From positions 124,001 through 188,000 of the forward strand of contig NZ_JAGGPU010000005.1 of NCBI RefSeq assembly GCF_018613605.1: a DNA stretch of 64,000 nucleotides, read 5' to 3'. Shown one piece after another: positions 366 through 61,740 of this stretch. The position numbers and the translations under genes are program-made. Numbering within the stretch: position 1 is the first letter of the stretch; every line of letters begins with the position of its first letter. Origin of the DNA: Pedobacter sp. ISL-64 (GTDB lineage: Bacteria > Bacteroidota > Bacteroidia > Sphingobacteriales > Sphingobacteriaceae). The notes below the pieces were generated by a model that worked only from the letters and a program-made list of their open reading frames with translations, had not been told where the DNA came from and ran no database searches.

Positions 366-2000
366 TTAGAACATAAGTTTAATACTAAACTTGTTTCCTT
401 TTTTAAGAATTAGTAATTCCTGCTTAGTTTCATTGTACTTCCATTCATCTGCGTTAATCACTTTAATGGGTTTTTTAGCAACTTGTTGAATTAAAAATGC
501 ATATGGAAGTTTATTTTTACCTTCTACAATTAATTCATTTAATTGACCATCATGAGTAATCCGTATAGAATCAAACTCAATACCCTCTCCTAACGGTCGA
601 TAATATTGATATACAGTTTTCTCTCTGTTTGGAACAATGTATATAGCTTGTTTGCCAGTTAAAGTTGAATCGCCGATACCCGAATAGCTATTTGTGATAT
701 TCATTGGAATAATTGACCCTTGCTTAATAAATAAAGGAAATTGGTTAAGTGGATATGTTTTACTAATATTTGTACCTCCGTCAATAATAGTTCTTGCCCA
801 AAAATCCATCCATTTACCTTCCTTTGGAAGACTAAAATTTACAGAATCGTTTGCCGATGTAATAGCTTTTGTAAATAAATAATTACCAACCGTGTGGCTT
901 TCTTGTTTGTACGATACATTTTTAATTAACGAACCACTTGTTTTATGTACATCTACTATGGTGCTGAATAAATAAGGAATTAACTGACTATGCAACCACA
1001 CCGCCTGTTGGTAACATAAAGTTGCCTCATTGCCATGATACCAGGGTAAATGATTTGTAAACGCACCATTTTCGCCTCCATTTATCATGCTGGCAGTTAA
1101 AGCACCAAACTGGGCATAACGTATCAGTTCTTTTTTATCGGCACGGGCTCCAAAAAAGCCACCTATTTCGCATCCGGGAGCACCGTATCCGAGTTCTGCA
1201 CTTTTATATATATTGTTTATCTGAAGTTTTAAACCTGCCCAAGAACCTTCGAAATCGCCACACCATCCAAGGCTTAATTTTTCTACCGATGCTTCTACAC
1301 CTCCCTGATGTGAGAATGGTCGTCCAACTATTGCTCCTTCAGCTTTGCGACTAGTAATGTATTGAAACATACTATTGTAATAATATGGACGAAATTCAGT
1401 GTTCGTTAACTTCCCAATTGATGTTTGAATGGTATCGCCAAAATATATTTCACCTTGATCCACTTTAAATCCATACACTCCATCAATTAAAACTTTATCA
1501 AGTTGCGAATTCCACCATTTTACGGCATCCTTGTTTGTAAAATCTATGTGCAAGCCATCACCTTTCCACCAATGTGATATTTTGCCATTGTTTACTGCAT
1601 ATTTTTTTTCAACAACCTCATCAAATGAAGGGTGTTTTTGAATCGGCATATCTGTAGCTGTACTATTTACACATCCGGTTAACCACAGTATCACTTTTAC
1701 ATTGCGTTTATTGAAGCCATGGATCATCTCTGTTGAATTTGGATAACGTTTTGTATTCCAATCAAAGTTATTATATGCTGTTGACCACGGACTATCAATA
1801 ATAATAGCCCCCACGGGCATTTTATGCGCTAAATATAAGTTTACAAGTCTTTCCGAGGAAACTTGGTTGTTGGCACTATCCTCCCAAACAATATGTTCCA
1901 ATGCCCACCTTGGAGTAATAGGCGCAAATTTTAAGTTTTGAGAAAATAAATTTGTTTGGATAAAAAGACAAATACTAAAACACAAGATGATTTTTTTCAT
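366..2000 (-). CDS. GH31 family glycosidase (alpha-xylosidase/alpha-glucosidase type), short form
   Basis: Secreted glycoside hydrolase that probably removes alpha-linked xylose or a related sugar from oligosaccharides in the periplasm. The start at 2000 is preferred because it gives a clean signal peptide (MKKIILCFSICLFIQ, cleavage near FSQ); the frame extends 18 codons upstream to 2054 with no signal-like sequence. From this start the protein is 544 residues. The GH31 nucleophile motif FKVDQGE has its Asp near residue 181, and the acid/base motif WCGDFEGSW has its Asp near 249. The catalytic barrel begins almost straight after the signal, so the N-terminal beta-sandwich of typical 650-800 residue GH31 enzymes is missing. 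The gene looks visibly more A+T-rich than its neighbours, which may mean separate acquisition. Substrate is inferred from the PUL and is not certain. Confidence 0.85.
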   Translation of the reverse strand: MKKIILCFSICLFIQTNLFSQNLKFAPITPRWALEHIVWEDSANNQVSSERLVNLYLAHKMPVGAIIIDSPWSTAYNNFDWNTKRYPNSTEMIHGFNKRNVKVILWLTGCVNSTATDMPIQKHPSFDEVVEKKYAVNNGKISHWWKGDGLHIDFTNKDAVKWWNSQLDKVLIDGVYGFKVDQGEIYFGDTIQTSIGKLTNTEFRPYYYNSMFQYITSRKAEGAIVGRPFSHQGGVEASVEKLSLGWCGDFEGSWAGLKLQINNIYKSAELGYGAPGCEIGGFFGARADKKELIRYAQFGALTASMINGGENGAFTNHLPWYHGNEATLCYQQAVWLHSQLIPYLFSTIVDVHKTSGSLIKNVSYKQESHTVGNYLFTKAITSANDSVNFSLPKEGKWMDFWARTIIDGGTNISKTYPLNQFPLFIKQGSIIPMNITNSYSGIGDSTLTGKQAIYIVPNREKTVYQYYRPLGEGIEFDSIRITHDGQLNELIVEGKNKLPYAFLIQQVAKKPIKVINADEWKYNETKQELLILKKGNKFSIKLMF

Positions 2001-2082
2001 AAAATAGTTAAGTAAGAAATTATTTATTACAATTAATTTTAAGTTTAAATTCATGGTTTCAGTAACATTACCTATATGTAGT

Positions 2083-2375: not shown

Positions 2376-3863
2376 TTACTTACCTCCTGCAATAAGGGCA
2401 TCTAACATAGGTTGGTCCTTTACCACATTATTAGCTCTGTCTAACATAAAACCTATCTCCCAATAGAATGGCAGAATACCATTCGCTTTAGCCTGTTTGG
2501 TTAGATAATATGTCCAGTCATTTACAGACTTGTTGTGCATAGCCAGATCTTTAGGAAGATAATTCGGGTTGTTAATCGCATTCCTTCTCCAGGCTGCATA
2601 TTCACCCAACATCACAGGGATTCCTTTATCAACAAACTTCTGTTTAATATTTTTGAATTCAGTATCGATCACATCCTCTTCTCCATAGGTAGCGTTGCGT
2701 TCTGGCTCAATAGTAGAGTGATTCCCTTTCCCCCAGTAGTAAACCATTTTGCCCCAACTTACATCTCCATCTGTTAGTATCGTAAATGTAGAAGGCGTGT
2801 AGTCATGCACCTCGACCATCAACTTATTAGGAATTTCGTCTTTTGGCATCGTATTCATCAAAGTAAAAGTTTTGGTAGGGTCAGTGCTGGGGCCCTGCAC
2901 AACCAGCACCCGGTAACTGTTCCTGCCTCCTGTAGAACGAACCGCCTTGATGAATGTTTCGTGATAACTATTGAGTATGGCCATCTGCTCAGCATTTTCA
3001 ACCGCAGGTTCATTCGTGCCGGCAAAAATAAGGTGCTCGTCAAAATCACGCATGGTTGTAGCAATCTGCTCCCAAAGTGCTTTTAGTCTCGCATTAATTT
3101 CCTCTTGCTTGGCCGCATTGACATTATTTTCGAGCCAGCCATTATCTCCGTGCGTATTTAGCATCACATACATATCGTTAGCTACACACCATCCAACTAC
3201 TTCTTTCACACGGTTAAGCCATGCGGGGTCAATTTCTACTTTATCGGGATTACTTAAATGAGTCCAATTCCAGTTACAGGGAATCCGCACCGTATTGAAT
3301 CCCTTTTGCTTTACAAATTTCACATACGATTCGGTCAGTTTACTATTCTGCCACTCACCTTCTTTTGGGGATTCCATGGTATTGCCAAAATTTATTCCCA
3401 AATGCATTTTTGCCGCCAGTTGTACAGCCGTACTGCTCATCCCGGTTGCATCGGGTGCTTTTGGCGATAAATTATATGTTGGATATAAATTACCTACTTG
3501 TGTAATCTTAATTCTCCTGGCCTGGCCATTACCGGATGTAACCGTAACCACACCATAGCGCGATGCACCTGTACCATTACCGGAAAATTTTAGCTGTAAC
3601 TGTGTAGCACCTGCTCCGCCCGCTGTGCGACCTATCTCTATCCAAGGCACCGCATCATTGATAGCTGCTGTCCATGCGTCGTTGCTGGTAATCGTCACTT
3701 CTGTACGCTCGCCATCTGCCTGCGCTTTAATATCCAATGCAGAAACTTCCAGTTCTGCTGCAACCTCCGACTTCTTACAGGATGAGGAGAATAAGGCGAT
3801 AACGATCAGGAAACCTAAAAATATCCCGTAACTTCTATTTTTCATATTTATAATATTGTTCAT
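2376..3863 (-). CDS. BACON-GH5 endo-beta-1,4-glucanase lipoprotein (endo-xyloglucanase type)
   Basis: Surface lipoprotein endoglucanase expected to cut the beta-1,4-glucan backbone of xyloglucan. A lipobox (LFSSSC, Cys29) follows a hydrophobic signal; Met7 (3845) is an equally good start. Residues 37-124 form a BACON-type domain, and a GH5 catalytic domain runs from about 146 to the end. The acid/base Glu is E285 (GTNEPA) and the nucleophile E421 (LGEYAAW); the entry motif is GINFGNTMES. This domain order matches the Bacteroides ovatus xyloglucan enzyme BoGH5A. It is one of three GH5 paralogues here. Its NTHGDNGW stretch (236-243) differs from NIHWDGGW in the other two, so a Trp near the active site is replaced by Gly. 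Activity on xyloglucan is inferred from context. Confidence 0.9.
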   Translation of the reverse strand: MNNIINMKNRSYGIFLGFLIVIALFSSSCKKSEVAAELEVSALDIKAQADGERTEVTITSNDAWTAAINDAVPWIEIGRTAGGAGATQLQLKFSGNGTGASRYGVVTVTSGNGQARRIKITQVGNLYPTYNLSPKAPDATGMSSTAVQLAAKMHLGINFGNTMESPKEGEWQNSKLTESYVKFVKQKGFNTVRIPCNWNWTHLSNPDKVEIDPAWLNRVKEVVGWCVANDMYVMLNTHGDNGWLENNVNAAKQEEINARLKALWEQIATTMRDFDEHLIFAGTNEPAVENAEQMAILNSYHETFIKAVRSTGGRNSYRVLVVQGPSTDPTKTFTLMNTMPKDEIPNKLMVEVHDYTPSTFTILTDGDVSWGKMVYYWGKGNHSTIEPERNATYGEEDVIDTEFKNIKQKFVDKGIPVMLGEYAAWRRNAINNPNYLPKDLAMHNKSVNDWTYYLTKQAKANGILPFYWEIGFMLDRANNVVKDQPMLDALIAGGK

Positions 3864-3949: not shown

Positions 3950-4140
3950 CTCACGTATTGTCAAAAACCTGATTTCTTTTCACTTCATGCTGAAGCGCTG
4001 CCGTATTGCTGTTGGCCATATAGATCCCAGGAGCAAGGAATTCGAATGGTGTTGAAACCACTTTCTTTAGCCAGATTGACATATGCCTGGGTAACCAGCA
4101 TTCACTGCTTTTGCAATAGATTGTTTCCCGGCCGGACTTC
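3950..4140 (-). pseudogene. Frameshifted fragment of a GH5 gene
   Basis: In one minus-strand frame the segment reads VTQAYVNLAKESGFNTIRIP then CSWD. After a 2-base deletion it continues in another frame as YMANSNTAALQHEVKRNQV. Both pieces align with the intact GH5 at 40573 (residues about 95-143: VSQALIDQVKRSGFTAVRIP, then YMANSATAELQ and VKQVVQYC). Nucleotide similarity to that gene continues to the relic's end. It has no start, signal or catalytic part. It lies between the BACON-GH5 gene and the DUF1080 gene in a 402-bp gap. The left end adjoins the SGBP relic. Confidence 0.7.
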
Positions 4141-4265
4141 CGAGTTCTTGTTTTTGGCACCTCGTAAACATAGGGATGACTACGATGCCGAAAGGATAAT
4201 TTACTATTCTCATATAGGTATATAATTGGTTTCTATTAAAAAATCGATCAACAGAGGGGTACTTG

Positions 4266-5036
4266 CTACAATTTTCTTAACCAGATATTGCGATAGCTGA
4301 TCGGTTCACTTTTATCTCCATGACTCTGTAATTTAATTGGTGAGGCGCCATGTTTTCTGTAGGTTGGCTGGCCAATATAAGGGGTGTCCCCTTTGAGTAT
4401 GGTCGCATTCTGCACGAGAATGCCATTTTGAAAAACTGTTGCTACAGCTGGTGACTTTACAGAACCGTCCTCATTAAAACGGGGAGCTGTCCAGGCTACA
4501 TCATAGGTTTGCCACTCTCCTGGTTTTAAACAGGCATTTACCATCGGCGGCGATTGTTTGTAGAGACTACCAGCCTGCCCGTTTACATAGGTTTTATTGT
4601 CGTAATTGTCCAGCACCTGCAATTCGTATCCGCCAGCACCCCAGGGAAGAGCAGCCAGAAAAATACCGCTGTTACCTCGGCCCTGACCACTTCCGCTTAT
4701 ATTTTCTGGTATCCTGTATTCAATGTGAAGCTGAAAATCCATGAACTTCTCTTTTGTCTGGATATCACCCACGGATTTATCTACTGTCATGATCCCATCA
4801 GATAACTTCCATTTTTTTGCTGAAGCAGTATCGCCGGAATTTACCCACTGATCCAAATCTTTTCCGTCAAAAAGAAGTATGGCATCTGAAGGTGCTCCTC
4901 CAGACACTTTAGCCGGACTTACCTTTGCGGGTACCGGGGTCCATACTTCCGTATCTTCTGGCTTAGCAGGTTGCTGTGCCTGAACGAGCAGTGCATTTGT
5001 TATGAGTATCCCAACAATTAATATTGATCGTTTCAT
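4266..5036 (-). CDS. Secreted DUF1080 / 3-keto-disaccharide hydrolase family protein
   Basis: Exported protein of 256 residues with a signal peptide (cleavage near VQAQ, residue 21) and a concanavalin-like DUF1080 domain from about 50 to the end. Family marks are ILLFDGKDLDQW, the WKLSDGIMTV strand, GNSGIFL, YELQVLDNY, GEWQTYDV and the closing ISYRNIWLRKL. Members of this family have been described as 3-keto-disaccharide or 3-keto-glycoside hydrolases/lyases, acting on sugars first oxidised at C3. It is the last gene of a tight three-gene minus-strand unit with the propeller-cytochrome c protein (33-bp gap) and the 249-residue protein. That context suggests a periplasmic oxidise-then-cleave step for disaccharides released by the PUL. 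The chemistry is an inference from family and neighbours. Confidence 0.8.
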   Translation of the reverse strand: MKRSILIVGILITNALLVQAQQPAKPEDTEVWTPVPAKVSPAKVSGGAPSDAILLFDGKDLDQWVNSGDTASAKKWKLSDGIMTVDKSVGDIQTKEKFMDFQLHIEYRIPENISGSGQGRGNSGIFLAALPWGAGGYELQVLDNYDNKTYVNGQAGSLYKQSPPMVNACLKPGEWQTYDVAWTAPRFNEDGSVKSPAVATVFQNGILVQNATILKGDTPYIGQPTYRKHGASPIKLQSHGDKSEPISYRNIWLRKL

Positions 5037-5069
5037 ATTATTGATTGATTTTCTTTAGCTATTGATGTA

Positions 5070-7010
5070 TTATTTATTTAATGATTTGATCCAGTTCGCA
5101 ATTTTTGCAACCTCATCTTTTGGAACATTGGTCATTGGCGGCATCGGTGTGGAATAACCCGGCCAATGCTCTGGTTTAGGCGTATAAATCAGGCTTATTA
5201 GTTCCCCAACCGTATACTTTTTGGTGGAAATCTCTTTAAAAGAGGGGCCAACTTGTCGTTTATCCGGATTGTGGCAGGCCAGACAAGTATTTTTAGTTAG
5301 CAGCCCTTTCACCTGCTCATAAGTTGGAATTTTCACTACCGATGTTTTTCCACCTGATGAAGACTTTTTGCTTTGTGCCAAAGGCAGCGTTTTAGTTGAG
5401 GCCGAATTTTTGGTACTTACTTCTGCAAGGCTAAGCGCTTTGCCTTCCGGAATATTATTTAAAGTATAATATGCTGTTGGATGTACCAGACTATAGTAGT
5501 TCTCTTGTGATCGAATACCATCCAAAGTAATGTTGTGAATATATCCTTTGCGCAGGTTGGCTACGATAATTCGGGCAGTGAGGCCATCAGCTGAAACGCG
5601 AACGCCCTTTACATTGCATTTTTGACTATTTACCGGCGGACTTCCATACACACTATGGTATTTATAAATAAAGCTTTCCACTGAATAAGAAGCAAGATCT
5701 AAGGCGTATTTCTTATCAACAGGTTTGGTGAACGCTATTTCAAACCCATCAGGCATGGCTTTGATGCTGCGCATTTCAAAAGGAATTTTATTGTTCCACA
5801 CCAGCCGCTGAATCCCTTCTGTGGCCTCACCGGCCGAACCCCATCCCCTGTTGGTCTCGCCGGCGAACAATGATCCATCCTTCCCCCAAGCCAGACGCAC
5901 AATACCCGACTGAAATCCGCTTCTGAAGGGCCATGCGGCCCCTTGATATTCTCCGTTTATCTTTTCCATAAACAAGCGGCTAACCATACTCTGTCCCTGA
6001 TCACCCACCAGAAGCTGGCCAGCAAAAGGGCCAAAGGAGCCTTGAGGAATTTTTACTATCTCAGAATTTGAAATACCCAGAATTCCGTGAGGCAGCCACA
6101 CCGCGGGTATTTGCAGTTCAGGAAAGTTCTTCTTCATATCCATCTCAGTTACCACCTTTGCATTCACATCGTTCTCTGGCTTTACACTGTTTCCCTTGCT
6201 GTCGTAAATCATCTTTGTCTCATTCTTAGCAAAGAACTGTTCTGTGGTCAATTTTATTGGAGACTGTGGCAGATTAGCCCACACCAAGCTGGCCGGATGC
6301 CCCATAAATGCGCCCTTTTTCACTTGCATAATACTTCCAGAGCCAACCCAATCGCCTTGATTATCAGTATAAAAAAGCTGATCATCAATCATACTAATTC
6401 CGCAGGGTGAGCGCATACCTGCAGCCCAAGGCTCTACTCTTCCATCTTCAAAAATATGGAGTGCCCAGCCTCTCCATGGAACCATACTTGTCGGGTTCCA
6501 CCAGGTTGGCGGAAATCCAAGATTCAGGGTTACAAAAAAAGATCCATCTGCAGCTAGCTTAGGGCCAAAACTATACTCATGGTAATTTCCAGACAACGGC
6601 CAGGCATAAACGGTCTCAAAATCGTCAGCCATGCCGTCGTTGTCCGTATCTGTCATTTTGGTCAGCTCCCCACGCTGAACACAGTACAGTGATCCGTCTT
6701 TATAGGCAAGTCCCAGTACTTCATGAAGGCCCGAAGCAAACTTTTGAAATGTTGGTTTCAGTGAAGACGGATTTTTCACAATGAAAACATCTCCCCTCCT
6801 GGTGGTGACACCCAGATCGCCGTTAGGCAACGTACAGAGTCCGCCCACTTCGAGGATTGCTCCTTCGGGTGCGGGGACTTTCATGATCTTAAAATAATCT
6901 TCTTCCTTTGGCGATTCTGCCTGGGCAAAGCAGCATATTGACATCAATATAGCTGTCATTGTCAACAGGCACGAAATACCGTTTTTATAATAATTGAAAT
7001 AAATACTCAT
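5070..7010 (-). CDS. Secreted beta-propeller dehydrogenase-like protein with C-terminal cytochrome c domain
   Basis: A 646-residue exported protein. A hydrophobic signal segment ends near CCFAQA (about residue 31). Residues 40-430 look like a six-bladed propeller of the sugar/sorbosone dehydrogenase type, with recurring GDLGVTTRRGDVF, GLAYKDGSLY and AWGKDGSLFAGETNRGWG blades. A linker of about 60 residues rich in Ser/Lys/Thr leads to a cytochrome c domain with the haem motif C576-LAC-H580 and candidate axial Met at 623 or 626. It starts 4 bp after the preceding gene, so the two are surely co-transcribed. The likely role is periplasmic sugar oxidation passing electrons to haem; the substrate is unknown. 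Alternative: a haem-binding scaffold without catalytic activity. Confidence 0.75.
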   Translation of the reverse strand: MSIYFNYYKNGISCLLTMTAILMSICCFAQAESPKEEDYFKIMKVPAPEGAILEVGGLCTLPNGDLGVTTRRGDVFIVKNPSSLKPTFQKFASGLHEVLGLAYKDGSLYCVQRGELTKMTDTDNDGMADDFETVYAWPLSGNYHEYSFGPKLAADGSFFVTLNLGFPPTWWNPTSMVPWRGWALHIFEDGRVEPWAAGMRSPCGISMIDDQLFYTDNQGDWVGSGSIMQVKKGAFMGHPASLVWANLPQSPIKLTTEQFFAKNETKMIYDSKGNSVKPENDVNAKVVTEMDMKKNFPELQIPAVWLPHGILGISNSEIVKIPQGSFGPFAGQLLVGDQGQSMVSRLFMEKINGEYQGAAWPFRSGFQSGIVRLAWGKDGSLFAGETNRGWGSAGEATEGIQRLVWNNKIPFEMRSIKAMPDGFEIAFTKPVDKKYALDLASYSVESFIYKYHSVYGSPPVNSQKCNVKGVRVSADGLTARIIVANLRKGYIHNITLDGIRSQENYYSLVHPTAYYTLNNIPEGKALSLAEVSTKNSASTKTLPLAQSKKSSSGGKTSVVKIPTYEQVKGLLTKNTCLACHNPDKRQVGPSFKEISTKKYTVGELISLIYTPKPEHWPGYSTPMPPMTNVPKDEVAKIANWIKSLNK

Positions 7011-7014
7011 CTGG

Positions 7015-7764
7015 CTATTGGTTAAAAAGAATGGAGTAGATGATTTTACGTTGAAATGGAACCAGGAGTTCCTGAGTTCCCTGTACGGTTCTGATGACAG
7101 GTTTCAATGCTGTTTCCTCCTCAACTGTAATGGAATAAGCTTTATCTACAATAACATATTTACCATTCTCCTTCGGCTCGATTCTATCTGCCTTGGCGAG
7201 ACATAGGTATAAATCATTGGCATTTCCCCCTAGCTCAATTTCACGTCGAATGCCCTGGCCACCATCAATGACCCTCGTCGCATCCTTAACAGTCAATCCA
7301 TAGGTGCGGTATTTAAATACTGGCAGACCCGACGCATCAAGCGTATAACCCTTCGGTTTGAAGCCTGACCCGGTTGTGTCTTTTTTAAACTCACTTTGTA
7401 GTGTTGCCAACTGCTGAATCTGGGGCATGGCATCGCCGACCTGGATTGCCTTTCCGAGTGGCCGCGAAGAACCGTCGCCCCTATCATGCCACATTGGTGT
7501 CGCATCCAGAAATCCTCCTTTCCACAATAGCACCAATTGGCCATTGTCGGCATCGTAGGTATAGTGCACTTGCAACGGACTACCTATGCTAATGGCATGC
7601 GTAACCCGTTTACCACCATTAAGATCAATAAAGCTCCTGAGCAGGATATTGCGTTCAGCCTTAATGATTATTGGCTCAACTTTGGTCTCCTGTGCAATAG
7701 CCGACCCGCCCGTCAAACAAAAGGCCGATGCACAGGCAATAAAAAAATAAGAATATAAATTCAT
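7015..7764 (-). CDS. Exported protein of unknown function, partner of the propeller-cytochrome c
   Basis: A 249-residue protein with a signal peptide (cleavage near AIAQ, residue 25) and mixed beta-type sequence. It contains LWKGGFLDATPMWHDRGDG and a V-Q-G-T-Q-E stretch near the C-terminus. Segments of this kind occur in large secreted propeller/cytochrome proteins of other phyla, so I suspect it is a detached module of the same complex, but I do not recognise a named family. It is the first gene of the three-gene unit ending with DUF1080. No promoter motif could be picked out in the relic-rich DNA upstream. Confidence 0.55.
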   Translation of the reverse strand: MNLYSYFFIACASAFCLTGGSAIAQETKVEPIIIKAERNILLRSFIDLNGGKRVTHAISIGSPLQVHYTYDADNGQLVLLWKGGFLDATPMWHDRGDGSSRPLGKAIQVGDAMPQIQQLATLQSEFKKDTTGSGFKPKGYTLDASGLPVFKYRTYGLTVKDATRVIDGGQGIRREIELGGNANDLYLCLAKADRIEPKENGKYVIVDKAYSITVEEETALKPVIRTVQGTQELLVPFQRKIIYSILFNQ

Positions 7765-7889
7765 GCTTATCTGTATAATATTTGGTTAATTAAGTGTGTT
7801 GTGTTGGTTTCGCATTATCTTTAAAATTGGGCTACTGACTGGTTCATAACTTATCAACAGTATACCCGTTTCTTTCCTTTTATCGCCAT

Positions 7890-8050
7890 GCACTATTTAA
7901 CAGCGATCTTCGGCTTTTGAGAAATATGGCCTGCGGAGTTTCACTGTCGAAACATAAAGTCTCCTGCCTAGATGTTCCAGTCTTTTCCCCGTCATCATAT
8001 AAGCAAAATCAGCAACTTTTACGTCTAACTCAACCGTCTTCGTTTCTTCT
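7890..8050 (-). pseudogene. Decayed C-terminal fragment, possibly of a GH3 beta-glucosidase
   Basis: One minus-strand frame reads KPEETKTVELDVKVADFAYM and ends after LRRPYFSKAEDRC. The pattern (charged turn, TKTV, alternating hydrophobic strand, D-F-A-Y, then a Gly-containing strand) resembles the fibronectin-like C-terminal domain of GH3 enzymes, which xyloglucan loci usually carry and this window otherwise lacks. There is no start or catalytic part. Family assignment is weak. Confidence 0.3.
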
Positions 8051-8145
8051 GGCTTGGCCATTACCGGATTTAACCGTAACCACACCATAACGCGATGCAC
8101 CTGTACCATTACCGGAAAATTTTAGCCTTTTGTGTGGATATCACC
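8049..8145 (-). pseudogene. Scar joining a BACON-domain fragment to a DUF1080 fragment
   Basis: Positions 8049-8126 repeat 3517-3594, the end of the BACON domain of the GH5 gene, with only a few mismatches. Positions 8127-8145 then match the DUF1080 gene near 4750 (CTTTTGTnTGGATATCACC) with one mismatch. The two source sites are over 1 kb apart and in different genes. This is a recombination scar, not a gene. Confidence 0.65.
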
Positions 8146-8660
8146 TTACTCCTTTTCTTTGTATTTCTCATATAAATAAGAGGCCTGAATGAGCTTCTTT
8201 TGGATAATTGGTTATTAACATCGAAGTTAAGTCAGAGATACGTTTTAGAATAGATCAGATCTTTCAATTTCCGCTAAAAATGTTGCAAAAGCTTTATATC
8301 GGCAGCTCAAAACCCTTTTTTGCTAAATAATAGCATTGAATTGGAAATATTTGTATCCGATTTTTTTCCTTGATCCGTAAAATTGGTAAGCACTAATTGG
8401 CGCGTTTTTTTATGGTAAACCCAGACAGATGCAGGCCTACAAAACAATGTGAAGTTGTAAAAAAATACTGGGCAGAATGCAATACCGGTAGGCGACATTA
8501 GACAACCATCGGGCATAGGTAAAATAGCGGTTTTTCTGGCTTCTGAGGATGCTCAGTTGATGATTGGTATAATCTTATTGTCGTCAGCTAAATAATTGAC
8601 TCTACGCTGGCGCAAGTCGTAACAAAAACATGTGTCTTTCGAGAGGCTATCAATGATAGA
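8146..8660. other. About 500 bp with no recognisable gene
   Basis: Only short frames are present. One minus-strand frame of 69 codons (8307-8516) has no signal peptide, domain or family resemblance that I can see. Given the relics next to it, this is probably further decayed sequence. Confidence 0.4.
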
Positions 8661-8670
8661 TATTAAAGGG

Positions 8671-8771
8671 ATCGTCATTGCGAGGAGGAACGACGAAGCA
8701 ATCTTTCATGCTAGTGATCCTTGCCATAAAGATTGCTTCGTCGGCTGAAAAAGCCTTCTCGCAATGACGAT
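8671..8771. repeat. Long hairpin repeat, type A
   Basis: Outer arms ATCGTCATTGCGAG and CTCGCAATGACGAT and inner arms CGACGAAGCAATCTTT (8691-8706) and its exact complement (8728-8743) form a strong imperfect hairpin. A degraded copy of the right half lies near 61600-61642. It looks like a member of a dispersed non-coding repeat family. Confidence 0.7.
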
Positions 8772-8798
8772 TCCTACCATTGACAGATTCCTAAAGAA

Positions 8799-8896
8799 AG
8801 GTCGTCATCTCGACTGGAGCACAGCGAAACGGAGAGATCTTTGGACTAAAGATTTCTCCACTACGGTCGAAAGGACGATACTTCGAGACCATTTAT
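8799..8896. repeat. Hairpin repeat, type B, copy 1
   Basis: Begins GGTCGTCATCTCGACTGGAG, passes through GGAGAGATCTTTGG and ends with GACGATACTTCGAGACCATTTA. The left part is closely repeated at 8975 and the right part at 61690. The right arm has decayed relative to copy 2. Confidence 0.65.
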
Positions 8897-8974
8897 TATA
8901 CTTAAAATACCCTGTCATTTATATTGTTTTTTATACAATAAATTAACCTTACCATTGACAGGTTCCAATACAAG

Positions 8975-9101
8975 CGTCGTCATCTCGACTGAAGTGCAAT
9001 CCCGAACTTTCGGGAGAGAGATCTTTGAAGCAAATTATTGAAACCAAATTTAAAAGATCTCTCCACTAAGGTCGAGATGACGATACTTCGAGATCATTTA
9101 A
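8975..9101. repeat. Hairpin repeat, type B, copy 2
   Basis: CGTCATCTCGAC at 8978-8989 pairs exactly with GTCGAGATGACG at 9071-9082. Inside, GAGAGATCTTT pairs with AAAGATCTCTC. It ends 18 bp before the stop of the GH51 gene and could act as its transcript end. Together with the other copies it shows a repeat family specific to this genome or its relatives. Confidence 0.7.
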
Positions 9102-9118
9102 CGTGCTTTTATTTGGTT

Positions 9119-11692
9119 TTACAGTTCAAATACGGTAAAGGAATAAGGTTTTAGTTCGAGAGATTTAAGATTCGAAAAATCCATAGCTGTTTTTATAGGT
9201 TGGATTTTGTAATCGCCTGGAAGACCTGATATTTCTTTTTTAATTACTTGTTTGTTTACTGAACTTAACTTGGACAGATCAATATTAGTCTTAACTGCGA
9301 CTGGAAGCATATTTACAATTTTGATGAATAATTTTCCTGATTTTTGGTCGCGGGTAATTGAGTACGCCACCCGCTTAATTACATCTTCTCTCTTCACTGA
9401 AAAATCAACTTGTGCAGGAATGAATTCATCTCCAACGTTTTGACCGTAAAGCTGTTGCACGTAATATCCAATGGTGGGCTTAACTTCTGTATTATTAAAA
9501 TAGATCAGATCAGGATTCCATTGTGTATGTTTTTCCTTTGCCAACAATGGCGCATAAGAGGCCATAGATACTACATCTCCATTGCGCTCCAGGGAGGTGA
9601 GATACAGCGCTTCAGATAAAGCGGTTTCCAGGTTTGTCCTATTTCCCACAGGGAGGCTTGCCGCATACTCTCCCAGATATACCTTTGATTTACTGCGGTC
9701 ATATTTGTCATAAAAATCCTGATTGTTTATAAACCAGCCTGGTGGACGATAATAATGTTCGTCTATCATGTCAATCTTCATTTCGTTGGCAAAGGCCCAA
9801 CCTTCTTCATAATCTGTGCCTTCAAAAAATGGCCCTGAAGTTCCAATAATGGTTATTTCAGGATGCGCTTTTTTAAGCGCTTTATAGATCATGGCGAAAT
9901 GCTCACGAAAGACGTCTGTTATCTGGTCTTCATTGCCGATACCGATATATTTTAAATTAAATGGTTTCGGATGCCCTGCTGCCGCACGTTCCTTACCCCA
10001 TTTTGTATTTGTGGCTCCATTACAGTATTCAACTAAATCAATAATATCCTGAATATATGCAGGCATATCTGCCATCGGGATTCCACCCTGTTGCCCTCCC
10101 CCATTGGCTCCTGAGTTTTGGCAGGGCACCCCAGCGGCGATAACAGGCACTGGTGCTGCGCCAATATCTTCACAAAACTGAAGGTACTCAAAGTATCCCA
10201 AGCCCATACTCTGGTGATAGCCCCACAAATTGCGGTCAGGAACCCGGGCCTGTAAGGCCCCAATTGTATTTTTCCATCTGTAAATGTTATGGATTCCATC
10301 TCCGTGGGCCACACATCCCCCGGGAAAACGCACAAAACGCGGTTTTATCGCTGCAATTGTATCTGCAAGATCTGCTCTAAGGCCATTTCGGCGATTTTTG
10401 AAGGTATTTTGGGGAAATAGTGAAATCATGTCGAGATCGATACGGCCATTTTGTAATGGCCACAATTGCAAGCTCACATCCGAGGCTGAAACCGATGATT
10501 TGAGCGTTGTTTTTATTTCCTTCCAGGATTTTGAACTGCAACTGATCAATCCTTTCGAAAGCAAGCCATATTTTTCACTAACAAGCCTTACTTCAAACGA
10601 TTTCTTTCCTTCTGGAACCCGGACAAAAGTGGAGAACAGGTAGTTTTCCCCCTTTTTTAGTGCAATGCCGTCATAACCAGAATTCGATAATGAACTACCA
10701 TCGACCGTTAAATTTAGTGCCGCATAATGTGGGTTGTTCGGATGTAGTGGCTGCGCTGTTCGAATTGCAAAATCCCCTTCTTTGCCTTTGAATGTCCAGG
10801 AATGATTGCTGTTCCATTTTGTATCATGGTTTTCTTTATCTGATGGCTGATATTCGAAGTCACGATTTTGGATCAGTTCACCATAAAGTCCGCCATCTGC
10901 TGCATAGTTGATATCTTCGAAAAATATCCCTGTTAACAGCTTACTGATTGCTTTAGCTTTTTCAGGCTCGGCCGAAATATACAGCTCCGGCTTTGTTAAG
11001 TTTGCAAAACGTACCGGATCTTCTTTGGTTGTCTCCGCATCTTGCCGCGCCTTGAAATTCCTGAGCTCTGCAGTTTTATTCAACTCTTCAACCACCGCCC
11101 ATTTAACACGATGTAACTGCCCACTCACCGGATTGTTTTGAATGGTAGTGGTGATGGTATTGCTTTTGTAGGCAGAGCGGGGTACCTCCTTTGCCGGACT
11201 ATAGGTTTTGAAGTCTTTTGTTTCTGTCTGAAAATAGGCGCCCTCACTATCTGTGTATACAATCTGATAAATGTCGAGATCTTTACGGTAACTAATCACA
11301 GGACGAAGGATATTCTTGCCTTTTTCAAAAAAGGGATAACCTTGCGGTCCCCAGTCAATCAGATTTCTTGTTTGAGCATGGGCAAACTGCCTTACCCGAT
11401 CATTTAAGCTCCATACACATTGCCAAACTCCTCCACGCCCCTGAATCACATATGGAGCAAACATTTTTTTATCTGATCCCCAGCGGCCAAAGTCCGAGCG
11501 AAGATAAACCTGTCCTGTTCCAACAGGTGTCCAATTATTTCGGTCATCGCTCCATGCAAACCGTAATCCATCAGTCGCGTATGAAAACAGGTAAACAGAA
11601 TCTGTTGCAGCATGTTGCGTTGGTTCTGTTGCAAATGAGTTTCTGCTAAACAACAGAAACACCAGCACTATAGATAGCTTACTTAATTTCAT
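9119..11692 (-). CDS. GH51 alpha-L-arabinofuranosidase with N-terminal propeller-like and carbohydrate-binding-like regions
   Basis: An 857-residue secreted enzyme (signal peptide to about FATE, residue 23). Residues 30-190 resemble part of a five-bladed GH43-like propeller (WSDDRNNW, MFAPYVIQG, ILRPVISYRKD). Residues 235-450 contain a jelly-roll region of the CBM4 kind found in GH51 enzymes, and the rest is the GH51 barrel. The acid/base is E588 (GIGNEDQ) and the nucleophile E675 (YLGEYAA), with VRFPGGCVAHGDG upstream. It likely removes arabinofuranosyl side groups. The start codon lies inside the end of the GH27 gene (14-bp overlap), so the two are translationally linked. The N-terminal propeller fragment is unusual for GH51. 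Confidence 0.88.
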   Translation of the reverse strand: MKLSKLSIVLVFLLFSRNSFATEPTQHAATDSVYLFSYATDGLRFAWSDDRNNWTPVGTGQVYLRSDFGRWGSDKKMFAPYVIQGRGGVWQCVWSLNDRVRQFAHAQTRNLIDWGPQGYPFFEKGKNILRPVISYRKDLDIYQIVYTDSEGAYFQTETKDFKTYSPAKEVPRSAYKSNTITTTIQNNPVSGQLHRVKWAVVEELNKTAELRNFKARQDAETTKEDPVRFANLTKPELYISAEPEKAKAISKLLTGIFFEDINYAADGGLYGELIQNRDFEYQPSDKENHDTKWNSNHSWTFKGKEGDFAIRTAQPLHPNNPHYAALNLTVDGSSLSNSGYDGIALKKGENYLFSTFVRVPEGKKSFEVRLVSEKYGLLSKGLISCSSKSWKEIKTTLKSSVSASDVSLQLWPLQNGRIDLDMISLFPQNTFKNRRNGLRADLADTIAAIKPRFVRFPGGCVAHGDGIHNIYRWKNTIGALQARVPDRNLWGYHQSMGLGYFEYLQFCEDIGAAPVPVIAAGVPCQNSGANGGGQQGGIPMADMPAYIQDIIDLVEYCNGATNTKWGKERAAAGHPKPFNLKYIGIGNEDQITDVFREHFAMIYKALKKAHPEITIIGTSGPFFEGTDYEEGWAFANEMKIDMIDEHYYRPPGWFINNQDFYDKYDRSKSKVYLGEYAASLPVGNRTNLETALSEALYLTSLERNGDVVSMASYAPLLAKEKHTQWNPDLIYFNNTEVKPTIGYYVQQLYGQNVGDEFIPAQVDFSVKREDVIKRVAYSITRDQKSGKLFIKIVNMLPVAVKTNIDLSKLSSVNKQVIKKEISGLPGDYKIQPIKTAMDFSNLKSLELKPYSFTVFEL

Positions 11693-33284: not shown

Positions 33285-34733
33285 TTATTTAATTTTTACA
33301 ACTCTCAAATTATCAACAGCGCCATAAAAGCTGGCTGCCGAAAGCGTGTAGTTATGTATATACATGATGCATGAGGTATTTCCGGATGCACCTGTTAAAT
33401 CGGCAATTTTGGTTAGTGGATCCCCCATCCCCTCGCCAAGCTCAGGATGTGATGCACGGAAAGATGTTAATGGAATAGTTACGGTTACCCATCCTTTTGT
33501 ACTGTACGGTACCGTGGTCGTGGCGTTTATTCGCCATGGCTCCCATCGGGCTACATGGCCATTTACTCCACTTACAATATCAACTGTAGTACCCTTCCAA
33601 GCTTTTGGGATATTTACTTCAAATTTAAATGCCCAATCGCTAGCCGCATCTGCAATATTGGTTTGAGGTACCCATTGTGCTGCATTCATGGGTATGTTTG
33701 TAGACCAAGGCCATCCGTCGCTACTGGACAAGCCATTAATATCCAACACAAAATAGGTGCTTGAATTGCCAGTGAAATTAGAATCGCCTTTAGTTTGTTT
33801 ACCAGCGCCCCAGTATTGCCAGTTAAAATTACTGTCCCAGTTTGATATAGAGCCTGTTACTACATCATTAACCTGGTACACAGTAGTAGCCGTGCCAAAC
33901 GGTGTAGTAACTGAAACCGGTCCGCTTTGCGTTAGTGTTGGCAAAATGAATCCAACAGAACTCCCATTCTTGGATGATACAAATGAAGTAACCGGGGTAC
34001 CTGCAAACGTCAGCGTTTGAATATCTTTAAGATAGACACCATAAACATACACCGAATCACCTGGGTTTGCATTTTCATTGGTAATACCTGCTATAACCGG
34101 GGTCGCAATTATTTTATGATTCAACGTACCGCTTTTGGTGATGATTGATATCTGATCGTTGGTCGTTACAGCCGGCATCAAAAATCCAATAGAATTCCCC
34201 GCAGTGTCTAATTTAAAGGATTGGATTGGGGTGCCCCTATACGAAAAGCGTTGAATGAAAAATAAGCCTGAGCCATAAACATAAACAGAATCGCCTGGGT
34301 TGGCATATAAATTGGAAATTCCGGCAAAGGTAGGTGCTGCCGGACCTAATTTAAAAGAAAACCTTGTGGAACCTGCTTTTGTAGTATACTCTACCATATA
34401 GAGTTTAGCAGTATCAATTTTTGAAAACTGCATGTCGGGTATTCGCACCACGGCGCTGTTAGGCGCAAATAAAGCGCTGTTAAAAGAAGCAGGCACACCA
34501 TTAAAACTTATTTGTGTAGCATTCTGCAAATTATCTCCGGTTATCACCACATATTGCCCGTTTGGCGCAGCACTATGCAAAACGGTATCATTAGGTGAGG
34601 CTGCATAATTCTTGATACTCAGAATAACTGGAGCAGAACTGTTTTCTCTATCTTTTTTACACGCAGGTAATACAGCCGCTATCATTAAGAAAAGCAGCAA
34701 AGAGTAGAAGGTTAGATATGATTTTATTTTCAT
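33285..34733 (-). CDS. Surface glycan-binding lipoprotein (SGBP-B-like, xyloglucan-binding type)
   Basis: A 482-residue lipoprotein (lipobox VLPAC, Cys25) in the SusE/F position after susD. Residues 33-280 contain three TIG/IPT-like Ig repeats; the second and third share the wording NPGDSVYVYG. The C-terminal domain (about 290-482) is Trp-rich (NWDSNFNWQYWG, DGWPWSTN, ARWEPWRIN) and ends AVDNLRVVKIK. It resembles the xyloglucan-binding domain of SGBP-B in the B. ovatus xyloglucan locus. Expected role: holding the polysaccharide at the cell surface for the GH5 enzymes and SusCD. It is followed by a strong terminator. The xyloglucan specificity is inferred. Confidence 0.87.
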   Translation of the reverse strand: MKIKSYLTFYSLLLFLMIAAVLPACKKDRENSSAPVILSIKNYAASPNDTVLHSAAPNGQYVVITGDNLQNATQISFNGVPASFNSALFAPNSAVVRIPDMQFSKIDTAKLYMVEYTTKAGSTRFSFKLGPAAPTFAGISNLYANPGDSVYVYGSGLFFIQRFSYRGTPIQSFKLDTAGNSIGFLMPAVTTNDQISIITKSGTLNHKIIATPVIAGITNENANPGDSVYVYGVYLKDIQTLTFAGTPVTSFVSSKNGSSVGFILPTLTQSGPVSVTTPFGTATTVYQVNDVVTGSISNWDSNFNWQYWGAGKQTKGDSNFTGNSSTYFVLDINGLSSSDGWPWSTNIPMNAAQWVPQTNIADAASDWAFKFEVNIPKAWKGTTVDIVSGVNGHVARWEPWRINATTTVPYSTKGWVTVTIPLTSFRASHPELGEGMGDPLTKIADLTGASGNTSCIMYIHNYTLSAASFYGAVDNLRVVKIK

Positions 34734-34757
34734 TACAATATCTTTTAATTTTTTTAA

Positions 34758-36356
34758 TTAATAATATGGTACCGGTGGTTCTGCCAATTTAGGGGCGGTG
34801 GTTAGCTCAGATGACGGAATTGGCAATGTAAATGAAGAGATAGTTGCCGGAAGCGTAAGTGGTGGAGCAATAGTATCCCTTGTTGCTATCTTCGTTACAG
34901 GATCATAAGTAAACGAAATCCGACCGTGAGTAACATCCTGATCATTAAGAAACTTCACAGCATTAGCCGGATCATAATAAGAATACCTCACCAGATCTGT
35001 CCAGTATTGTCCTTCAAAAGCAAGTTCAACCCTTCTTTCCGTGCGCAGTAAAGCCGGAGTTATCGCAGTTACAATATCCACGCCGGCCCTTGTCCGCACA
35101 GCATTGAAATACTTTAGCGCATCAGCATCGCTCGTAGTACTATTATTGCCCAAAATGGCTTCGGCATATACCAAATACACATCGGCCAATCTAAGCATTG
35201 CATTATGTTCAGGAGATGACCACATATCCATTGTTGGCGAATTGTTGTCTTTTTCGTTCCCGATAATGTGCTTTTTCAGGCCGGTACCGGTCGCCTTATA
35301 ACCACCGGAGGCTTGAAGTAATTCGGGATAAAGATCTCCTCTGAGCATAATAGTGGCCTTGCGCCTTACCGTATCCTTAGCAGAATACATCCGGTATAAA
35401 TCATAAGTTGGTTGTAAGCTTTGCCATCCACCTTGCTGTTGAGGAACAAGAGTGTTGCTTGGTGAAAAATAACCCTGTAAAGCATTGCCATTTCCATAAC
35501 CTACTCCTGCGGCCCATTGAAGCGCGAACAATGACTCAGGGTTATCGTTGTTTTGCACCTTGAAAAGGTCATAATAGCTAGGAAACAATGCCAGCGCGCT
35601 ATTTTTACACACATTGCCCGCATACTTTTTGGCACTGTCAAGCAAGGCCTGGTCGCGTACACCGCCACTTTTGCCTACACCCGCCATCGTCAAATATACC
35701 TTGCCCAACATTCCTTGCGCCGACCATGTAGTTACCCGGCCTTTTTGATCTGTTTTGGGAAGGTGTTGAGCTGCGTAAGTCAGGTCTTTAGCAACGAATT
35801 TATACACATCCGAAACAATGTTGCGGTTAAGCAGCGGATCTTTTATCAGTTTACTGTTATCTTCAATAATTGGCACGGCACCCCAATATATCGCCAAATT
35901 ATAATAAGCCATGGCACGAACAAATTTTGCCTCGGCTGTGGCAGCATTTTTATCTGCTTCCGAAATAGACGGATCAGCCTGCTGTTGTATGGCACTGATA
36001 ACCGTATTGCATTGTGCTACAGTATTGTATAACCCAACCCAACCATTTGTCACAAGACCATTTTGTGGGGTAACGGTGCGTGTAAAAAGCTGTACTATAT
36101 CGCCGCTATACTGAAAGCTGCCGGTACCGCTCAATATATCGCCAAGCGGTATCAAGGCGCCATTGTTCCATTGCCACCAGTGTGCACCGCCGTAAAGGCT
36201 TGCCGTAGCCAATCGTACATCAGCGGTGGTTTTATAAAAATTGTTAGAACTTATCTGTGAGTTGGACGGACGGTCCAAAAAACTCTTTTTACATCCGACA
36301 ATTGCTGCTGCACATAGCAGGATGATGAAAATTTTGTTAATTAATTTCATAAACAT
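34758..36356 (-). CDS. susD: SusD-like outer-membrane glycan-binding lipoprotein
   Basis: A 532-residue RagB/SusD family lipoprotein (lipobox AIVGC, Cys22). The mature N-terminus reads FLDRPSNSQISSNNFYKT, with helical TPR-like pairs (NAATAEAKFVRAMAYYNLAI) and the usual late motif TRAGVDIVTAITPALLRTERRVELAFEG. It forms the lid of the SusC transporter and delivers oligosaccharides to it. It lies 25 bp after susC and 24 bp before the SGBP gene. Trp pairs near HWWQWNN could contribute to glycan binding. Confidence 0.95.
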   Translation of the reverse strand: MFMKLINKIFIILLCAAAIVGCKKSFLDRPSNSQISSNNFYKTTADVRLATASLYGGAHWWQWNNGALIPLGDILSGTGSFQYSGDIVQLFTRTVTPQNGLVTNGWVGLYNTVAQCNTVISAIQQQADPSISEADKNAATAEAKFVRAMAYYNLAIYWGAVPIIEDNSKLIKDPLLNRNIVSDVYKFVAKDLTYAAQHLPKTDQKGRVTTWSAQGMLGKVYLTMAGVGKSGGVRDQALLDSAKKYAGNVCKNSALALFPSYYDLFKVQNNDNPESLFALQWAAGVGYGNGNALQGYFSPSNTLVPQQQGGWQSLQPTYDLYRMYSAKDTVRRKATIMLRGDLYPELLQASGGYKATGTGLKKHIIGNEKDNNSPTMDMWSSPEHNAMLRLADVYLVYAEAILGNNSTTSDADALKYFNAVRTRAGVDIVTAITPALLRTERRVELAFEGQYWTDLVRYSYYDPANAVKFLNDQDVTHGRISFTYDPVTKIATRDTIAPPLTLPATISSFTLPIPSSELTTAPKLAEPPVPYY

Positions 36357-36381
36357 ATATTTTTAATCGCTGATCGTTTTA

Positions 36382-39300
36382 TTATCTCAAGGCTATGTTT
36401 GCACCAATAGTAAATACTCTTGGCTGCGGATAATAACCGCTGTCCCAACCTGCCTGAAGTGGATCCCATGAACCAATTTCAGGATCCATACCTTTATATT
36501 TTGTAATTATAAATGCATTGGATACATTGGCATACACCCTAACAGAACGCACAGATATTTTTGATAAAAATTTTTCTGACAAACGGTAACCTAAAGTGAT
36601 ATTTTTACACCTCAGGAATGAACCATCCTCAATCATTAAACTATTAGGACGGTTATTACCGTTGGTATTATCGTTTCTCAACCCAGCAATAGTTGTATTA
36701 GGGTTGGTAACGTATACGTTGTTAACATCGGATGAAGAGCCTTTAGGATCTACCAGAGCCAAGTTTGCATAATCTAATACCGATGTAAAATAGGCAGCCC
36801 CATTTTGCGGATTGGTTTGCTGTATAGCCATTTGATTGAATACCTTGCCGCCATAACTGCCACTGAAGAAAATATTCAGGTCAAAATTTTTGTAGTTAAA
36901 TGTATTATTGATACCAAATTGGAATTTGGGGATCGGGGAACCCAAAAAGGTTTGATCTTTTGAATCGATAATACCGTCGCCATTCAAATCCTTGAACATA
37001 CGGTCACCGTACCAAATACCACCGCCTGCTGGAGAGATCGGATAAGGTTTACCGCTTGGATCAGCAGGCCGTGCATGGTTTTTAAAATCTGCTGGAGTTG
37101 AGAAAATACCATCAAATACATAGCCATAAAATTCGCCAATGGGCCGGCCCACCGTCGTTTTTTGAATGATATCGTTAATCACATAAGATTTCTTACTTAA
37201 GTTAGCATCAGCTCCACCTGCACCTAAGTAGGTCACTTTATTAATATTCCGCGATACAGTAAAACTAGTTTTCCAACCGAAATTTTTAGCATTAATATTG
37301 GTAGAATTGATTTGAATATCAAACCCTTTGTTGGTTAACGAGCCAACATTGGCAAAAGGCGCTTGCATAGATCCTGGCCCATAACCCGCTACAGAACCAG
37401 AGTATCCTGGAAGCGGCACCTGTAATAAAAGGCCTTTTGTTAAGCGGCTGTAAGCTTCTAACGTAAAACTTAAGCGCCCCTTAAAAAGCGTTCCGTCAAG
37501 CCCTGCACTGTAATAATCAGTTTTTTCCCAGGTCACATCTGCATTTGCCAAATTGACTTGAAACTGAGCTATACCTGATAGACCATTGGCTATTGTTTGA
37601 AGCTGGGTTACAAATGTATTGCCCGGTATGCCCTGGTTGTTGGTAAGCCCGTAACCGAGCCTCAGCTTCAAGTCATTTATAGCTTTTATATCTTTTAAAA
37701 ATGCCTCGTTTTTAATTTTCCAGGCAAATCCACCCGAGTAGGTAGTCACCCAACGGTTGTAGGACGGAAAATTTGAAGAACCATCGTTACGTATATTGCC
37801 GGTGAGCAGATATTTATCATTCCATGAAAAATTGACACGGCCGAAATAAGATTCCTGTGCAGAGCCTCCCGTAGGGTCTGATAATGAATTGTTGCCGAAG
37901 TTTGTGGCCGTGGTAGCATCCCCGCCACTAATCGCCTGCACATTGTCTGAAGCAAAATTCCTTCGCGCACCGCCAAGATTCTGAAAAGTGCTTTCTTGCG
38001 ATTCATGCCCTGCTAAAGCATCAAAACGAAATTTTTTGAAATTATGGTTATAAGTTAGAAAATTGCGTATTACTATATTAAAATTTTGACCGGCGCTAGA
38101 GGAACCGGAGTTAGGGTTTACATTACCTTTGCCAAAACTATAAATTGGCGAATACCTATCTTCTGTATTAAAATCGAAATTACCAGATAGCTCATTTCGC
38201 AGCGATAACCCCTTAGCCAATTGTATTTCGGCATACACATTGCCAAATACTTGATTTCGCTTTCTTAAGTGTTTGATAATTTCTGCCAATGCCACCGGGT
38301 TGGCAACAGGTGGCACCCAACCGTTGGGATCGATAACCCCTCCCCAGGAGCCATCAGAGTTGGTTACCGGAACATCAGGAGTAAGGCTTAGTGCAGTAGC
38401 AATTACATTACTGGAGGTTGAGTTTACTTTTTCATCAATATGCGACAACTGAAGGCTCGTCCCTATTTTTAGCCAATTAGTGGTTTTATTGTCTAAATTC
38501 AGCCTTAACGAGTATCTGCTAAAATCAGATCCAATGGCTATCCCTTCCTGGTTAAAATACGAGGTTGACAATAAATATTGGGTTCTGTCATCCCCACCGC
38601 TTACAGTAAGTGTGTGATTCATCTGCGGGGCTTTCCTAAATAATTCTTCTTGCCAGTTAGTGCCCTTACCTAAATATTGAGGATTGGCAAATAGGGGCCT
38701 TTTATCAAAGGACCAGCCCGAAGCAGCAGACCGGGCATTAATAAAAGTAGCAAATTGTTGCAAATCTACTGTGGGAAGTCGCTTAAGTATTTCCTGGTAA
38801 CCGGCATAGAAATCATAAGTTATCTGCGGTGCCCCGGCTTTCCCCCTTTTTGTAGTGATTACAACAACTCCATTGGTTGCCTGCGAACCGTATATGGCTG
38901 TTGCCGAAGCATCTTTCAATACATCTATTGATTCAATTTCGGCAGGATTGATGGCATTTAACGGATTAGAACCACTCCCGGGGTCGTTTACCGGTGGGAT
39001 AATAATCCCGTCTATAACGAACAGTGGCGAATTAGAGCCACTTATTGAAGATACGCCACGGATTTGGATAGATACACCACCACCTGGCTGGCCCGATACC
39101 TGTTGAACCACTACCCCAGCAACTTTGCCTTGCAGGGCCTGGTCAAAAGTAGTTGGCTGGGTTTGGCGTAAATCGTCTCCTTTGATTGAGCTTATTGAGC
39201 CTGTAACATCTTTTCTTGCTACCTTAGCATAGCCAATAACAACAACTTCATCTAATTTTGTAGTTTCGATCTTTAAGGTAACATTGATGACACTGCCATC

Positions 39301-61720: not shown

Positions 61721-61740
61721 GTTATTATTATGCAAATGAT

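Follow-up and report, generated by a model that had tools for sequence, protein, structure and literature searches.

The 64,000-nucleotide (nt) stretch of the Pedobacter sp. ISL-64 genome analyzed here (contig NZ_JAGGPU010000005.1, positions 124,001 to 188,000; hereafter, the window) carries three genes, denoted C, B and A in their order on the minus strand, that are considered here as a candidate unit for oxidation and subsequent cleavage of glycosides. An initial annotation had described these as three tightly spaced exported genes within a xyloglucan-type polysaccharide utilization locus (PUL), encoding a DUF1080 protein, a propeller protein with a covalently bound haem and a partner protein. 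This description was borne out at the level of genes and domains: the open reading frames (ORFs) lie exactly at 4266-7764, the spacers are 4 nt (C/B) and 33 nt (B/A), and a Sec-type leader, judged by eye, is present at the start of each protein. The genes and the domains of B are as follows.

7015-7764, minus strand: gene C, ORF of 249 amino acids
5070-7010, minus strand: gene B, ORF of 646 amino acids
5787-6908, minus strand: six-bladed propeller, B residues 35-408 (structure matches and profile-profile match to GSDH)
5079-5309, minus strand: class I cytochrome c domain, B residues 568-644 (PF00034; phmmer matches to cytochromes c-551/c-552)
5271-5285, minus strand: haem motif C576-x-x-C579-H580 (sequence and alignment of 50 sequences)
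4266-5036, minus strand: gene A, ORF of 256 amino acids

Gene B encodes a propeller fused to a class I cytochrome c

The C-terminal domain of B is recognized as a class I cytochrome c by PF00034 (25.4 bits, with a cut-off of 21.3), and C576, C579 and H580 of the haem motif, together with M623, are invariant among the 50 aligned sequences. The AlphaFold2 model of B, built with 50 relatives (mean pLDDT 84.5, pTM 0.82), was compared to the PDB. The top six matches are all pyrroloquinoline quinone (PQQ)-type sugar dehydrogenases acting on aldoses or glucose (2ISM, 3A9G, 7CGZ, 7CDY, 3DAS and 2G8S), with Z scores ranging from 28.4 (2ISM; 2.5 Å over 285 residues) to 26.0 (2G8S); other six-bladed propellers score at 23.8 or less. 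A profile-profile comparison of the B propeller family with 24 GSDH (PF07995) proteins from relatives yielded a probability of 97.9% (E 5e-13, 276 columns) and placed R200 of B opposite the Arg of the 'RNP' motif in GSDH. Among 84 distinct propellers from all architectures described below, R200 and W390 are kept in all 84, N217 in 83, and H144 and R372 in 80 each. A sequence search of the solved structures with the propeller profile was uninformative, returning nearly exclusively short repeat units (Pizza designs, PknD). No match to GMC oxidoreductases was detected in A, B or C at E values up to 0.1. B is probably a dehydrogenase related to the PQQ enzymes, with PQQ as a possible cofactor.

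The conserved unit joins a DUF1080-C protein to B

Relatives of B were analyzed in two partially overlapping sets: the best 80 of at least 574 confirmed relatives (hereafter, the 80 best loci), and a separately drawn sample of 395 genomes of the phylum, which contained 63 matches in 43 genomes, namely, the window and 62 further loci, all of which were classified. Sequences collected in this analysis served to build the profiles used here for C, DUF1080, SusC and SusD.

The relatives encode C as the C-terminal portion of a larger protein, which starts with a DUF1080 domain and often has a PA14-like stretch in between; starting near residue 26, the whole remainder of the window C aligns with this portion of the DUF1080-(PA14)-C proteins. 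This alignment rules out the possibility that C is an unrelated new protein, and what the initial annotation treated as an unknown, independent partner is normally half of a fusion. The window C is a shortened form from which the DUF1080 and PA14 parts are absent; a hidden DUF1080 remnant was sought in front of it, but tblastn with eight related proteins, including six fusions, detected only C itself in the region 6900-9300. No Pfam family passes its cut-off on C, with DUF6797 remaining sub-threshold (14.9 vs 24.9). The model of C (pLDDT 89) is a super-beta-sandwich that resembles the periplasmic domain of YidC, C-terminal domains of GH38 enzymes and polysaccharide lyases and, at lower scores, mutarotases. 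Given that the best Z score is 10.9 and the matches are spread over several families, this fold could not be assigned to any one of them; Foldseek with the C model produced no match at E 0.001 or better.

A profile search located a DUF1080-C gene directly before B in 76 of the 80 best loci; the remaining four (L126, L139, L142 and L146) have B close to the end of a contig, with the gene upstream of it truncated or absent. In 14 of the 80, the gene immediately after B is a separate DUF1080 gene of the A type. The condition named at the outset as refuting, absence of the trio from other loci, is thus contradicted. What is conserved is a module of two genes, DUF1080-C plus B, and this module is widespread in Bacteroidota.

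The terminal domain of B and the composition of the module vary across the phylum. Of the 63 matches, 44 are close to B; the terminal domain is of the CxxCH kind in 16 of these and a cupredoxin in 28 (recognized from its motif in 26 and by Pfam in L266 and L268); in L260, CxxCH is present but the PF00034 score is 20.0, below the cut-off of 21.3. The same replacement of cytochrome c by cupredoxin after the same propeller was found in L046-L050, L059-L062 and many of the phylum loci. Such an exchange is hard to explain without electron transfer and therefore points to an electron-carrier role for the B terminus. A DUF1080-C gene adjoins 39 of the 44 close matches. The five exceptions are the window; L257, which has no partner; L262, located at a contig end; and L265 and L269, where the N-terminal part of the partner is not recognized as DUF1080 over the cut-off (sub-threshold in L265, unrecognized in L269).

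The remaining matches fall into four architectures. Pfam scans covered all proteins of types IV, V and VI, the six C proteins of type III and part of the 44 close matches. In type III (six matches), the B homolog consists of the propeller only, the adjoining C protein carries the cupredoxin (PF00127 over the cut-off in five, weak in L275), and no DUF1080 was found nearby in any of the six loci; in L280, the C protein (4254-5933) combines the cupredoxin with Laminin_G_3 in the place where others have DUF1080. Type IV consists of single chains of about 1220 residues (L281, L283, L285, L286 and L287; for example, L283:4720-8400, 1226 residues) that contain a C-like part, cytochrome c, PA14, the propeller and DUF1080, with PF00034, PF07691 (PA14) and PF06439 (DUF1080) over the cut-off in all five. 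The four type V proteins contain the C-like part, cytochrome c, PA14 and the propeller but no DUF1080, and the four type VI proteins are cytochrome-DUF6797-propeller proteins. Altogether, DUF1080 is found in the chain or adjoining it in 45 of the 62 informative matches (L262 was left out). The chance expectation is about 1.5% per 6 kb span, given the 487 DUF1080 matches counted in the 43 genomes (mean, 11.3 each), which corresponds to a P value of about 1e-67 when shared ancestry is ignored.

Two clusters of similar proteins recur near the module. One, of GH92 genes, is present at 15 of the 80 best loci, mostly in Pedobacter (for example, L045:4403-6691). The other is represented near the module in nine of the 80; its one scanned member is a ThuA-GSDH-cytochrome c fusion (L137:4796-7282, 828 residues), which may hint at keto-sugar chemistry as well.

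State of the separate and fused DUF1080 domains

Protein A matches PF06439 (3-keto-disaccharide hydrolase, DUF1080) with 150.5 bits, compared to a cut-off of 26.8, and belongs to the same subfamily as PDB 4QHZ. It is 67-75% identical to four compared proteins from Mucilaginibacter and Segetibacter. Residues N122, S123, E138, Q140, D143, N204, Q237 and H239 are invariant in 13 A-type proteins, and the C-terminal Q-x-H-G motif is found also in five aligned solved structures.

In 115 copies of the fused DUF1080 (114 distinct), N122, S123, E138, Q140, D143, Y159, W175, N204, Q237 and N250 are kept at 94-100%, and the His is present in 111, shifted by one column. E174 has been retained by all five single chains and by approximately two thirds of the DUF1080 copies of the Pedobacter sp. 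ISL-64 genome. On balance, this residue pattern argues against the fused DUF1080 being a mere binding domain. Binding alone is the less likely reading, in favor of which are the lower profile scores of the fused domain (two scanned copies gave 79 and 92 bits) and its loss in a few copies.

A putative oxidise-then-cleave unit

We consider it probable, short of firm, that C, B and A make up a periplasmic unit in which a propeller dehydrogenase feeds a one-electron carrier and the resulting keto-sugar is then cleaved. The B propeller would oxidize a hydroxyl of a glycosidic sugar unit, most likely that at C3; this position is proposed because of the DUF1080 partner, given that the known partners of DUF1080 are LacABC and the enzymes of a non-hydrolytic route (see below). 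The electrons would pass singly to the cytochrome c domain of B and from there to the respiratory chain, and the DUF1080 protein A would break the keto-glycoside bond by elimination and hydration. C could handle sugars or act as a scaffold within this complex, positioning the substrate or the partners. In the window, the unit would act in the periplasm on oligosaccharides imported by the PUL, possibly those derived from xyloglucan. The role of the oxidase had been attributed tentatively to the propeller-cytochrome protein already in the initial annotation. The co-occurrence, the single-chain fusion with DUF1080 and the nearest folds among PQQ sugar dehydrogenases support that attribution; the cofactor site is only partly conserved.

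Several observations weigh against this scheme. B scores under the Pfam GSDH cut-off (11.8 vs 25 bits) and is thus a relative rather than a member of the family. The PQQ site, as aligned, is only partly conserved: the Asn of the GSDH RNP motif is Ser in the B family, the position of sGDH K377 lacks a Lys in the GSDH alignment, H144 and R372 are one column off the GSDH His and Arg, and H144 is replaced in four of the 84 propellers (by Ala in two of type III, by Cys in one and by Arg in one). PqqE was detected over the cut-off in none of the 101 genomes of the family (61 of them have weaker matches), so PQQ would have to be scavenged; this test is weak because 14 control genomes also yielded only matches below the cut-off, that is, there was no positive control. 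In the fused DUF1080, Leu takes the place of E174 in 107 of the 115 copies, and the N-terminal L55 and G58 of A are lost. Among the phylum matches, 18 of the 63 have no recognized DUF1080 alongside, one of these being cut by a contig end. The single-chain form comes from two genera only, and its C-like and propeller parts are assigned by the in-house profiles, with DUF7133 below the cut-off in all five chains.

A broader proposal, which we put forward more tentatively and regard as possible rather than probable, is that these proteins represent a further class of oxidases for keto-glycoside cleavage. Under this proposal, a quinoprotein-like propeller would be paired with an exchangeable one-electron carrier, either cytochrome c or blue copper, some Bacteroidota would have combined all the parts into an 'oxido-glycosidase' of about 1220 residues able to carry out both the oxidation and the subsequent cutting of the glycosidic bond, and the window copy would have been recruited into a xyloglucan PUL.

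Glycan utilization setting and history of the window copy

The PUL around the trio encodes a SusC-like TonB-dependent receptor, SusD and a surface glycan-binding protein B (SGBP-B) with the xyloglucan-binding domain PF18329, as well as, upstream, GH5, GH2, GH43 and GH42 enzymes and a hybrid two-component system (HTCS)-type regulator. The xyloglucan-type assignment of the locus is based on the presence of the SusC/SusD pair along with the xyloglucan-binding SGBP; SusC and SusD lie about 27 kb from the trio within the window. An alpha-L-arabinofuranosidase, which we take to be of the GH51 type, and a melibiase-type gene adjoin C, and BACON-GH5 and GH31 genes directly follow A.

366-2054, minus strand: GH31, PRK10658 alpha-xylosidase-like, under the cut-off of that model (profile match)
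2376-3863, minus strand: BACON-GH5 (profile match)
4024-4095, minus strand: GH5-type catalytic fragment downstream of the trio (24 codons; 54% identity to the neighboring GH5, 58% to the GH5 at 28466)
8044-8126, minus strand: GH5 fragment upstream of the trio (83 nt; 95% identity to positions 3512-3594, in the BACON part of the intact GH5)
9119-11692, minus strand: alpha-L-arabinofuranosidase (profile match)
33285-39594, minus strand: genes of this PUL for the xyloglucan-binding SGBP-B, SusD and the SusC-like receptor (profile matches)

In a tree of 98 propellers, the window B belongs to a group of 28 sequences (support 99) from Mucilaginibacter, Segetibacter, Ferruginibacter and two Pedobacter metagenome-assembled genomes. 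The second B copy of the same genome (L045) groups apart, with other Pedobacter. The window B branch is long and its exact place in the tree is unsure. The window copy is derived, having lost the fused DUF1080 while keeping the separate enzyme. GH5 fragments flank the trio on both sides, and therefore the trio apparently was placed here by rearrangement; its position in the PUL looks secondary.

The same fragments raise the possibility that the window copy is a passenger that was carried into the PUL and is outside its function, whichever chemistry holds. We regard this as unlikely. The idea is strengthened by the absence of the DUF1080 half from C and by the wider distribution of the module. 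A first clustering had given SusC-like genes in 17 of the 80 best loci, and the notion of a trio confined to PULs was rejected; the profile recount gave SusC-like genes in 28, SusD-like genes in 17 and both in 16 of the 80. The SusC-SusD pair is present in 15 of the 61 best loci with full flanks and in the flanks of nine of the 62 phylum loci. The fetched flanks (about 9 kb for the 80 best loci and about 6 kb for the phylum loci) would miss longer PULs, such as that in the window, but the PUL-bound strategy envisaged at the outset does not clearly emerge from these counts. What argues against a passenger is that all three frames are open and conserved and that the trio shares its strand with the PUL. 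The differences from relatives are concentrated at third codon positions, with third vs second position values of 0.58 vs 0.14 for A (against L098), and 0.57 vs 0.13 for B and, more weakly, 0.67 vs 0.30 for C (both against L078). Because of this third-position-rich divergence, A, B and, less clearly, C look to be under selection. Synonymous divergence (dS) is saturated in the window comparisons, and the codon-position differences were used alone.

Other features were noticed around this PUL. Directly to the left of the window (L077, 104001-124000 of contig C39), there is a PUL-like run with GH127, two GH43 and a melibiase-type gene and an HTCS-type regulator of its own. A KaiC-family ATPase gene (44988-46736) is located near that of a PAS histidine kinase (42611-44380) beside the PUL. 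The gap that precedes the trio contains short direct and inverted repeats (8775-9100), which recur at 61602-61729.

Alternative assignments of the chemistry

B could be an ordinary aldose dehydrogenase that produces aldonolactones from free or reducing-end sugars, with the DUF1080 parts only binding sugar. The closest folds of B are indeed aldose and glucose dehydrogenases, which act on C1. A binding role would fit the low scores of the fused DUF1080 relative to the 150 bits of A, the loss of E174, the weakening of the domain in L265 and L269, its disappearance from the window C and the six type III loci, where it is not found nearby and is replaced by Laminin_G_3 in L280. In addition, PF06439 overlaps CBM66 (PMC5673643). 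A binding module would not, however, need the polar family residues that the fused copies have mostly kept, and although the window lost the fused DUF1080, a full separate one remains adjoining. We consider this alternative quite unlikely.

Still less probable, in our assessment, is that DUF1080 is a plain glycosidase that requires no prior oxidation, with the propeller-cytochrome performing an unrelated job. A Thermogutta DUF1080 enzyme is reviewed as hydrolyzing native xanthan, lichenan and, weakly, xyloglucan (PMC10881899), which also counts against the oxidise-then-cleave scheme. An unrelated job is at odds with the single chains in which DUF1080 is fused to the propeller and cytochrome c, with the adjacency of DUF1080 to the propeller far above chance and with the genetics of DUF1080 together with LacABC (PMC9007349).

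Finally, it is highly improbable that the propeller itself cleaves glycosides, as claimed for Lac161_ORF7, a PVC-type propeller-HEAT-cytochrome protein said to be a beta-galactosidase; set against the described domains of that protein, B reaches only E 0.03 with TIGR02604, far under the cut-off. Purified Lac161_ORF7 (TIGR02604, HEAT, cytochrome c) is reported to liberate glucose from lactose with a Km of 1.8 mM and a kcat of 13.2 per s; the expression host was E. coli BL21(DE3)pLysS, used with IPTG (PMC5342196). We infer that carry-over of LacZ from this host is a possible source of the activity, and the release of glucose would equally fit oxidation followed by cleavage.

Comparison with known systems

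The oxidase of the LacABC system, a GMC flavoprotein with a cytochrome, differs from that of the trio in being a three-component complex and not a propeller. A LacABC-like cluster is present in the Pedobacter sp. ISL-64 genome itself (L069:7888-15253), encoding GMC, Gluconate_2-dh3, Gfo/Idh, CxxCH and DUF1080 proteins, so B would be an additional type of oxidase. LacABC resembles the trio in that periplasmic 3-dehydrogenation is proposed to be followed by the action of a DUF1080 protein; this lactose route is known in Caulobacter and Pedobacter, and the lack of a lactose phenotype for DUF1080 genes in Pedobacter GW460 was ascribed to redundancy (PMC9007349).

The PQQ aldose sugar dehydrogenases (GSDH, PF07995; 2ISM, 3A9G, 3DAS, 2G8S) share with B the six-bladed propeller, profile homology and the conserved Arg motif. 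Unlike these enzymes, B as aligned lacks several PQQ ligands, falls under the Pfam cut-off, carries an attached cytochrome c and is tied to DUF1080. The route of the Bacteroides BT2156-BT2160 type, in which the oxidase is a Gfo/Idh/MocA enzyme, can be likened to the trio in its sequence of oxidation, elimination with a DUF1080-family protein, hydration and reduction; unlike B, it involves no haem or copper carrier. BT2157 is named as the DUF1080-family protein (PMC9007349), and a four-step non-hydrolytic glycoside route that includes a Bacteroides lyase has been reported (PMC13273386).

A combination of a PQQ propeller with a haem domain in one secreted protein is described for the AA12 pyranose dehydrogenase of Coprinopsis, and the AA12 enzymes discussed there also lack the Lys377 of sGDH; unlike B, this enzyme is fungal and contains an N-terminal haem b (AA8) domain and CBM1, with no DUF1080 among the domains described (PMC6881789). 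The PVC-type haem-binding proteins (TIGR02604, DUF7133, DUF6797) likewise combine a propeller and cytochrome c with a DUF6797-like domain. The window B and C are below all the cut-offs of this group (for B, 13.7 vs 122.2 bits with TIGR02604 and 16.2-17.1 vs 27 with DUF7133), whereas some B relatives pass DUF7133 (L266 and L268 among the close ones; L064, L282 and L289 among the more distant ones) or DUF6797 (L290-L293 and L066). Apart from the Lac161_ORF7 report, no function for the PVC-type proteins was found in the open-access literature searched, nor was a description of the DUF1080-C and B module; a Nature 2024 paper on a keto-sugar pathway is outside that coverage.

Implications

Oxidative cleavage of glycosides is known with NAD-type and flavin-type oxidases. 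In the literature searched, we found no earlier link between an oxidase of the B type and the keto-sugar chemistry of DUF1080. The pattern of fusions and carrier swaps suggests a role for 'propeller plus cytochrome' proteins that so far have had no assigned function. The single-chain relatives (L281, L283, L285, L286 and L287) lead to a direct prediction, that a single purified polypeptide would reduce an electron acceptor as well as liberate sugar. If the proposed scheme is correct, the depolymerization of glycans in the periplasm would be linked directly to the flow of respiratory electrons, even inside a classical hydrolytic PUL.

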